Assembly: GCA_014237715.1 (NCBI GenBank)
Contig: JAAZZG010000003.1
Coordinates: 1-64,000 of the forward strand
Direction: 5' to 3'
Length of the DNA: 64,000 bases
Origin: Acidimicrobiales bacterium
GTDB taxonomy: Bacteria > Actinomycetota > Acidimicrobiia > Acidimicrobiales > MedAcidi-G1
Part shown: one piece after another, positions 55,740 through 57,877 of the stretch
Layout: each line of letters opens with the position of its first letter
Position numbering within the stretch: position 1 is the first letter of the stretch
Made by a program: the position numbers and the translations under genes
The notes under the pieces: model-generated
What the model was told of the DNA's origin: nothing
Seen by the model: only the letters and a program-made list of their open reading frames with translations
Database searches by the model: none

Positions 55740-56792
55740 GTGAGTTCTGTTGTGACCGGCCTGGCCCGGCGACCTCTTACCGTGATTGCCGAACAGGCTT
55801 CGACTGTCGAAGCCGTCTGGGACGACGAGCGACCCATCGTGAGTCCCGAGGCACTTGGTGAACTGCTCGGCTGGGAGTGGCATGCAGAAGGCCTATGCCG
55901 TGAGACGGTTTGTGTCCCTGTCGCCGATCGTTCCCAGGTTGAACACGATGAAGGTATCGACATTTTGGCTGTCGCCAAGATCTTGAATCGGCCGGCTGTA
56001 ATAGACGCGGACGCCGGGTTACTGGTTGTCGGACAGCCCGCAGGTGACCGATTCGAAGCCCTTCACGGCCGCAGGGCCCCCGACTTCACACTCCCTGACC
56101 TGAACGGGTCACCGAAATCCTTTTCCGACTGGGCAGGCCGTAAACGGCTCTTGGTGGCCTTCGCCAGCTGGTGAGGGTGCGCTTTTGACCTGCCCGGGTG
56201 GCAGGCGCTGCAAGACGAACTAGGCGACACAGGTTTTACTGTTATTGCGGTAGCTATTGACGAAAATGTCGACGCCCTCCAAGAATTTGCTAAAGAGGTT
56301 TCCTACCCGGTGCTGGTCGACGCCGATCATCACCTCACCGAGTTGTACGCAATCAGCAACGTGCCAACTGTCATCTGGGTGGACGAAGAGGATCGAATCG
56401 TCAGGCCCAACGCGGCAGAGGTCGGTACCGACACCTTCTCTGAGTTCACCGGTGTGCACTGTGAGGGCCATCTCGAACTCGTACGAGCCTGGGTCGGTGA
56501 CGGCCAGGTTCCCGAAGATGCGAGCCATACCGTGGCCGATCTGACCGTCGACGAGGTGGAAGCCCGACTCCACTTCAGGCTCGCCGCGCACGCACGCCGA
56601 GCCGGCCTATCCGATGTTGCTGACTCCCACTTTGATCAGGCAGCCGAACTAACCCCTCTTGATTTCACGGTGGTGCGAGCAGCCATGCCTCTTCGCGGCG
56701 AAAACCCGTTCGGTCAAGAGTTCTTCGATCTCTACGGCGCGTACCGGGAAGCCGGATCGCCGTACCACGGAATCCCCCGAACCTCCGGCTGA
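55740..56792 (+). CDS. Putative selenoprotein: redoxin-domain protein with in-frame TGA (Sec145)
   Basis: A 350-codon gene, GTG start at 55740, read through one TGA at 56172-56174. Residues about 115-250 form a thioredoxin/AhpC-like domain: APDFTLPDLNGSPKSFSD, LLVAFASW-Sec-GCAFDLPGWQAL, TVIAVAIDENVDALQEF, and NVPTVIWVDEEDRIVRPNAAEV with the cis-Pro. Cysteine homologues I remember have ASWCGC at this point, so the TGA replaces the first redox-active Cys. Frame and similarity continue without change on both sides, and a SECIS-like hairpin follows. The C-terminal part (LHFRLAAHARRAG) is helical. An inactivated gene or a sequence error is the alternative. It is nine bases ahead of the next gene. 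Confidence 0.78.
56175..56211 (+). promoter_or_regulatory. Candidate bacterial SECIS element
   Basis: Directly after the TGA, CCTGCC (56189-56194) pairs perfectly with GGCAGG (56200-56205) around a five-base loop CGGGT. Flanking GCG (56179-56181) can pair with CGC (56206-56208) across an internal bulge. The apical loop with G-G-U lies about 21-25 bases after the TGA, the spacing and loop type expected for SelB-binding bacterial SECIS hairpins inside the coding region. Confidence 0.68.
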
Positions 56793-56800
56793 GGTCAGTT

Positions 56801-57877
56801 GTGGCGCTCAAGGTGGTGGTGTGGGGTACCGGAAATGTGGGCCGGCCAGCGATTCGGGCCGTGGTCGCACACCACGGGTTGGAACTGGTCGGCGTGATCG
56901 TTGCCGACCCTGACAAGGTTGGTGTCGACGCCGGTGTCCTAGCTGGGATCGGGACCTTGGGGATCCAGGCAACCGACGAGGTTTGGATTGCTGAGGCTGA
57001 CGACGTTGACGCAGTGGTCTACGCCGTGAACGCCGACTTTCGCCCCGAAGCGTCCCTGGAGGAGGTGGAACGGGTGCTTGCCTCCGGCACCGACGTCGTC
57101 TCGACGGCATTCCATGGTTTGCTCCATCCACCGTCGGCGCCGGAACCACTCCGGTCTCGTGTGGTCAGGGCCTGCATTGAAGGCGACAGCTCGATCTTGG
57201 TGTCGGGCATCGACCCTGGCTGGGTTCTTGACATCCTGCCGCTACTCCTGACCGGGGTTTGTGCCGACATCACGGAAGTACGGGCCCAAGAGGTCGCCAA
57301 CTACACCGGTTATGACCAGCCTCAGGCGGTTCGGGACCTCTGCGGCTTCGGCCACCCGCTCGACTACCCAACTCCCATATTGAGCGAATACGGGCTAATG
57401 ACAGTCTGGGCCCCAATGATCCGGGTATTGGCCGATGGCCTAGACCTGAAGCTGGACTCGATAACCACTGACACCGACCGTCGAGCACTCGAACGAACCG
57501 TGCACGTGGACGGAATGGGTGAGTTTGAAGCTGGGACACAGGGCGCTTTTCGGTTCGAGGTGAACGGAGTCATAGGCGGACGGCCGGTTCTAGTAGCGGA
57601 GCACGTAACCAGGATCGACGACAGTTGTGCACCTGACTGGCCTCAGTCCAGTGTCGATGGTGGACTTCACCGAGTCGTGATCACCGGTAGGCCGAATCTC
57701 GCCGTCTCGGTCCACGGTGAAGATGCGTCAGATCCGGGTGCAGCAGCCGGAGGCAACACTCTGGCTGCCAACCGAATCGTCAACGCGATTCCGGCAGTAT
57801 GCGAAGGGGAGCCGGGGCCGATCCATCCCCTTGCTCTTCCGTCAATCGTCGGCTCCAGCCAACTTCGCCTGTCTTGA
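56801..57877 (+). CDS. Dihydrodipicolinate-reductase-like NAD(P)-dependent dehydrogenase
   Basis: A 358-residue Rossmann-fold protein, GTG start at 56801. It begins KVVVWGTGNVGRPAIRAVVAHH, a dinucleotide-binding GxGxxG, and has DVVSTAFHGLLHPPSAP, SGIDPGWVLDILPLLLTG and QEVANYTGYDQPQAVRDLCGFG. These fit the broad group annotated dihydrodipicolinate reductase-like or 2,4-diaminopentanoate dehydrogenase-like. No reaction can be assigned. It is probably co-transcribed with the putative selenoprotein gene. Confidence 0.75.
   Translation: MALKVVVWGTGNVGRPAIRAVVAHHGLELVGVIVADPDKVGVDAGVLAGIGTLGIQATDEVWIAEADDVDAVVYAVNADFRPEASLEEVERVLASGTDVVSTAFHGLLHPPSAPEPLRSRVVRACIEGDSSILVSGIDPGWVLDILPLLLTGVCADITEVRAQEVANYTGYDQPQAVRDLCGFGHPLDYPTPILSEYGLMTVWAPMIRVLADGLDLKLDSITTDTDRRALERTVHVDGMGEFEAGTQGAFRFEVNGVIGGRPVLVAEHVTRIDDSCAPDWPQSSVDGGLHRVVITGRPNLAVSVHGEDASDPGAAAGGNTLAANRIVNAIPAVCEGEPGPIHPLALPSIVGSSQLRLS

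Follow-up and report, generated by a model that had tools for sequence, protein, structure and literature searches.

Does a single TGA in the middle of an otherwise open 350-codon frame end a gene, mark a broken one, or encode selenocysteine? The window, that is, the whole 64,000-nucleotide stretch of Acidimicrobiales DNA that was analysed, holds such a frame, whose sole internal stop (TGA 56172-56174) lies in the context FASW-TGA-GCAFDLPGW. A sequence-only reading had placed this TGA exactly where a Trp-Cys-Gly-Cys motif is expected, and had proposed that it is decoded as selenocysteine (Sec), giving a Sec-Gly-Cys redox motif. This gene is easily mis-annotated, because under the standard code it appears as one open frame of 158 residues and another of 160. 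Our analysis confirmed the placement of the TGA, at residue 145, and led us to hold with high confidence that the gene encodes a selenoprotein, predicted to be a ResA/TlpA-like oxidoreductase with the motif W-Sec-Gly-Cys at UGA 56172-56174. By comparison with its relatives, the product is almost certainly an enzyme that handles thiols and carries selenium in the active site.

The gene and its predicted protein

The features of the locus are as follows.

55740..56792, + strand: predicted selenoprotein gene of about 350 residues, with a proposed GTG start and a TGA stop at 56790-56792
55698, + strand: TTG, an alternative start codon that is also possible for this gene
55896..55898, + strand: Cys53, which together with Cys58 makes up a second pair of invariant cysteines (Cys in all 101 aligned rows)
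55911..55913, + strand: Cys58, the other member of this pair (likewise Cys in all 101 rows)
56067..56426, + strand: redoxin domain, residues 110-229 (Pfam; PDB relatives ResA, TlpA and DsbE-like)
56172..56174, + strand: UGA codon predicted to be read as Sec, residue 145 (TGA conserved in orthologues, TGC or TGT in other homologues)
56178..56180, + strand: Cys147, predicted partner of Sec145 in Sec-Gly-Cys (Cys in each of the 101 aligned rows)
56189..56205, + strand: putative SECIS hairpin with a 6-bp stem and loop CGGGU (published constraints and covariation)
56801..57877, + strand: DapB_N/DAP_DH_C dehydrogenase-like gene (Pfam), directly 3' of the selenoprotein gene

Redoxin features had been said to continue in the same frame on both sides of the TGA, and two Pfam domains indeed span it, Redoxin (57.7 bits, residues 110-229) and AhpC-TSA (53.2 bits, cut-off 26, residues 110-220). 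From its N-terminus, the protein consists of a domain bearing Cys53 and Cys58, the ResA/TlpA-like redoxin domain and a helical C-terminal part, over some of whose helices there is a weak TPR match (E 0.0033). Its structure model has a mean pLDDT of 85.8 and is weak at residues 141-150 (block mean 64) and 228-240. No N-terminal hydrophobic segment or membrane anchor was seen by eye, and the protein would be located in the cytosol.

The host genome holds a complete selenocysteine system

We then looked in the host draft genome (2.33 Mb, 75 contigs, 92.6% complete) for the genes on which bacterial Sec insertion depends, as the sequence-only reading had suggested, and all four of selA, selB, selC and selD were present. 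A tRNA-Sec with a UCA anticodon lies at C22:227315-227406 (67.5 bits; gathering score, 47), and the same contig carries SelA at C22:241136 (TIGR00474, 396.7 bits), directly followed by SelB (TIGR00475, 282.5 bits), both above their NCBIfam cut-offs; SelB has the Pfam GTPase and SelB winged helix domains. SelD is found on contig C11 (L043:1402-2500; TIGR00476, 358.6 bits). This SelD has one in-frame TGA of its own, in GAGUGCK, and is itself probably a selenoprotein.

TGA and cysteine codons among relatives

A match of any kind came from 28 of 48 genomes of the same family. An orthologue is present in 26 of these, whereas the other two (G044 and G001) gave weak paralogue matches only. The codon of residue 145 is TGA in all 26 orthologues, down to ~52% identity, two of them being fragments that include the codon (G036 and G043). 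A protein 89% identical to the present one is encoded by 'Acidimicrobiaceae bacterium isolate SP351'. The remaining 20 of the 48 genomes gave no match, although most have a Sec system, so the gene is either optional or missing from drafts. One orthologue (L022, in G040) has a TAA besides the TGA within its match.

The comparison was extended by two profile searches: NF041054 matched in 24 of 396 genomes of the phylum, and the A1 profile in 86 of 395 genomes of the class. Together with the 26 from the family, these searches yielded 90 homologues, one per genome; further loci from genomes already counted (L012, L064, L065, L075-L079, L084, L091 and L103) were left out as repeats. From the class search, 17 of the 86 genomes were left out, their best matches having E above 1e-50 and each '1 TGA'; one of them (G078, read as L045) has TGA at the codon. 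From the phylum search, eight of the 24 genomes are among the 90 and 16 were left out, comprising NF041054-like rows (TGA where readable), fragments, the out-of-frame L056, relatives with Sec-Thr-Cys (UTC; L066 and L074) and CxxC forms (L067 and L068). The latter two are ordinary CxxC redoxins, in genomes with SelA. One genome, G193, holds the NF041054-like L049 besides its UTC relative L074, and in G284 the NF041054-like L056 is out of frame around the motif while a second copy, L069, has its TGA in frame.

In the 90 homologues the codon is TGA in 73 and TGC or TGT in 17, so that the alignment of Cys homologues at residue 145, which had been proposed as a check, finds cysteine at exactly this codon. 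Bacterial selenoproteins are recognised by this pattern, a UGA within the frame at a redox site that is occupied by Cys in homologues. A SelA was detected in 68 of the 73 TGA genomes and in 1 of the 17 Cys genomes (Fisher p 1.5e-12, with kinship ignored), and tRNA-Sec in none of the 17. Five TGA genomes lack a detected SelA, namely G010, G591, G578 and G761 (69-79% complete) and G083 (94%), and only G591 and G083 of these have a tRNA-Sec (E 1e-9). The sole Cys genome with SelA, G567, has no tRNA-Sec that we could find. Two weaker Cys rows, from G606 and G518, were kept among the 90; without them the SelA counts are 68/73 against 1/15 (p 2.5e-11). In G515, the SelA match is in two pieces (contig C1:658815-659769), which suggests a frame break or an assembly error.

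Quick trees, with several long branches, were used to count the changes between Sec and Cys: at least nine on the tree of 90 proteins, four of them forced by well supported branches, and nine on a tree of the 88 rows that remain without G606 and G518, three of them forced. A kinship-aware sign test had four independent pairs on supported branches to work with (median p 0.25), too few for significance. The subfamily amounts to a natural experiment, in which one enzyme has Sec where the machinery is present and Cys where the machinery was not found, and the changes, at least nine (three to four forced), allow direct comparison of what selenium gains the enzyme and of how a SECIS decays. Conversions from Sec to Cys with remnant hairpins are known in other families, as the part of PMC1794560 available to us describes, and the present ones are a further case rather than the first.

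A hairpin that varies in concert in the TGA forms

The hairpin proposed downstream of the TGA was found as described, with a stem of CCTGCC (56189-56194) and GGCAGG (56200-56205) and a loop of CGGGT (56195-56199). The bSECIS constraints given in the part of PMC13188914 that we had are a loop of 3-9 nt, a stem of 4-16 bp, a G in the first two loop positions, a distance of 16-37 nt from UGA to loop and an energy of at most -7.5 kcal/mol; here the loop has 5 nt with G at position 2, the stem has 6 bp, the TGA lies 20 nt from the loop and 14 nt from the stem, and the isolated hairpin folds with -9.3 kcal/mol. Folding of the single sequence was rejected as proof of the hairpin, as shuffles fold equally well: for a 49-nt stretch the energy has a z of 0.48, 134 of 200 shuffles are as good, and the most stable structure pairs differently. 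The peptide DLPGWQ alone, moreover, fixes several of the bases in the stem.

We therefore turned to the pairing among relatives, comparing 72 TGA forms (L038 ends before the hairpin) with the 17 Cys forms. All five core pairs are standard in 71/72 TGA forms as against 9/17 Cys forms. The closing pair is formed by two third-codon positions, of a Pro and a Gly or Val codon, that face each other across the loop, and is Watson-Crick in 70 of the 72 TGA forms (C-G in 42, A-U in 14, G-C in 14; shuffle mean 30.7) and in 6 of the 17 Cys forms (shuffle mean 7.1). On the tree, it has undergone 11 or more changes. The outermost pair gives a weaker signal, being Watson-Crick in 54/72 TGA forms against a shuffle mean of 39.5. 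Codon choice points the same way: the Leu codon of the hairpin ends in G in 69 of 70 TGA forms, against 29.6 expected from the usage of their own genes, and in 12 of 12 low-GC3 genes, against 2.7 expected, while the Cys forms are near expectation (9/17 against 7.8). In L061 the stem is retained as GGUCCC/GGGACC through Leu-to-Val and Gln-to-Asp replacements, and in L133 a pair is retained through CUU with AAG. Leaving out G606 and G518, the Cys forms have all core pairs in 8/15 and the closing pair in 4/15. Both the shuffle and the codon tests treat rows as independent, and related rows inflate them.

TGA and pairing are thus conserved among relatives far beyond shuffling, and on this comparison the pairing is maintained by synonymous and compensatory changes in the TGA forms, and not in the Cys forms. 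This pattern bears on whether the UGA might be translated by readthrough as Trp or some other standard amino acid, or be reassigned throughout the genome, either of which would equally leave the frame open on both sides of the codon. We give such decoding a very small probability, since the hairpin is kept and a tRNA-Sec is present, Cys is the sole replacement (17 of 17 non-TGA forms among the 90), and TGA is the gene's own stop as well as that of 38 of the 73 TGA-form genes. Genome-wide reassignment in particular was rejected on the ground that these genes also use TGA as an ordinary stop codon.

Selection on both sides of the TGA

Ratios of dN/dS were determined for ten chosen pairs of relatives. 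Ahead of the TGA they range over 0.16-0.31. The next 85 codons give 0.03-0.14, below the value ahead of the TGA in 10/10 pairs, and the C-terminal part gives 0.08-0.19, below that value in 7/10 pairs. These low values after the TGA and in the C-terminal part indicate that the downstream half is translated. Disabled sister copies had been named beforehand as what would speak against a selenoprotein; instead, sisters keep the frame and are under purifying selection on both sides of the TGA.

The same observations decide whether the TGA could be a sequencing error for TGC, a recent nonsense mutation or part of a decaying pseudogene. A single base separates TGA from TGC and the assembly is a draft, yet the TGA recurs in separate genomes, namely in all 26 family orthologues and in 73 of 90 homologues, and purifying selection continues downstream of it. 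Pseudogene and sequencing error were rejected on this conservation, and we leave them next to no probability. A Sec codon can also terminate translation when Sec-tRNA is scarce, and the UGA could accordingly act as a selenium-dependent switch, so that a product cut short at 144 residues and the complete selenoprotein would both be made and both matter. It would fit with this that the N-terminal domain bears the invariant Cys53 and Cys58; the shorter product, however, would break off in the redoxin domain, directly ahead of the active site, and dN/dS is lower just after the TGA in all ten pairs and in the C-terminal part in seven. We consider a switch improbable, if somewhat less so than the preceding two alternatives. 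The preferred reading is that the UGA is decoded as Sec, a proposal of the sequence-only reading that is now supported by the Sec genes, the Cys homologues, the covarying hairpin and selection; both this recoding and the domain family are well supported by comparative evidence.

Relation to known families

Profile search ties the central domain to ResA, TlpA and DsbE-like oxidoreductases, with ResA and TlpA structures (PDB 1st9 and 1jfu) at E 7.2e-13 and 2.2e-8. Alignments with 3kcm and 1st9 place Sec145 on the first Cys of CxxC. The protein thus has a redoxin domain related to ResA/TlpA, although it scores 60.8 bits with the ResA model PRK03147, below that model's own cut-off of 170. It differs from ResA and TlpA in its active site, which is UxC and one residue short of CxxC, and in its extra N-terminal domain and helical C-terminal part.

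The sequence-only reading had taken the family to be known only with Cys, which did not hold, as UGC-type Prx-like/TlpA selenoproteins are found in the literature and in NCBIfam (NF041054). The available part of a 2008 study (PMC2398784) reports, for 'Prx-like (UGC-containing)', pfam00578, 46 selenoproteins in 15 ocean-metagenome samples and 855 Cys homologues, and its Table 2 ranks this family among those described previously. The UGC-containing Prx-like kind recurs in PMC9312934 and appears in Table 1 of PMC13188914 as 'UGC-containing TlpA disulfide reductase family protein', again in the parts accessible to us. The predicted selenoprotein is therefore of a kind that is already listed in the literature. 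It shares with that family Sec-Gly-Cys, a pfam00578-type domain and prediction from sequence, with Cys147 invariant; compared by description, the Prx-like family of PMC2398784 may or may not include the present subfamily. Covariation of the hairpin, Cys53/Cys58 and a class-wide distribution of Sec and Cys do not appear in the available parts of these papers. No papers on selenoproteins of Acidimicrobiia or Acidimicrobi were found in PubMed Central, an open library only, and none pairing selenoprotein with WAxxUGC.

A sister group is modelled by NCBIfam NF041054 (ResA-like WAxxUGC motif-containing protein), which has a similar length (354 positions), the UGC at the same position and the same N-terminal Cys pair. 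The present protein has F in place of the W of the WAxxUGC motif and reaches 195.6 bits, with residues 34-226 as its best stretch, against a cut-off of 300 for this equivalog (WAxxUGC_long), and filing it under NF041054 was rejected on that score. On a quick tree of 101 rows, a 99% branch separates 88 of the 90 window-type rows from 11 NF041054-like ones; genome G160 holds both kinds together. The other two of the 90 are the Cys forms L112 (G606) and L113 (G518), in whose genomes neither SelA nor tRNA-Sec was detected and which group with the 11 on the NF041054 side, so this sister family, too, has Cys members.

Proposed mechanism

On the preferred reading, the hairpin just 3' of the UGA would be bound by SelB carrying Sec-tRNA-Sec, Sec would be inserted at UGA 56172-56174 and translation would run on to the stop at 56790. 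Sec145 would take the place of the nucleophilic Cys of a CxxC shortened by one residue to W-Sec-Gly-Cys, and Sec145 and Cys147 may cycle between a selenol/thiol and a selenenylsulfide. Cys53 and Cys58 form a Cys-X4-Cys pair that is invariant in all 101 aligned rows (73 Sec, 17 Cys and 11 NF041054-like), and from this invariance we infer a second dithiol; it suggests that the pair exchanges with Sec145/Cys147 in an intramolecular relay, and may pass electrons to or from them. Our best estimate of the reaction is reduction of disulfides in proteins or small molecules, peroxides being less likely as substrates. More tentatively, and with rather less than even confidence, we propose a distinct selenoprotein subfamily of an actinobacterial class, in which Sec-Gly-Cys and the N-terminal Cys-X4-Cys would make a two-centre relay in one chain, and which would have turned repeatedly into a Cys enzyme with a dissolved hairpin where the Sec system is absent.

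The gene neighbourhood was set aside as a guide to function, being weak in this respect: of 20 neighbourhoods examined, only six have the DapB_N/DAP_DH_C gene next to the selenoprotein gene, these six coming from two genera within a single family, and a partnership of its product with the selenoprotein is at most a weak possibility.

Other redoxins with an in-frame TGA were also encountered. Two distant relatives, L066 (G295) and L074 (G193), have W-TGA-Thr-Cys, that is, UTC in place of UGC, with a similar hairpin downstream, and a genome of the same genus carries a separate redoxin with Tyr-TGA-Pro-Thr-Cys, of the UxxC type (L042, G040:C107).
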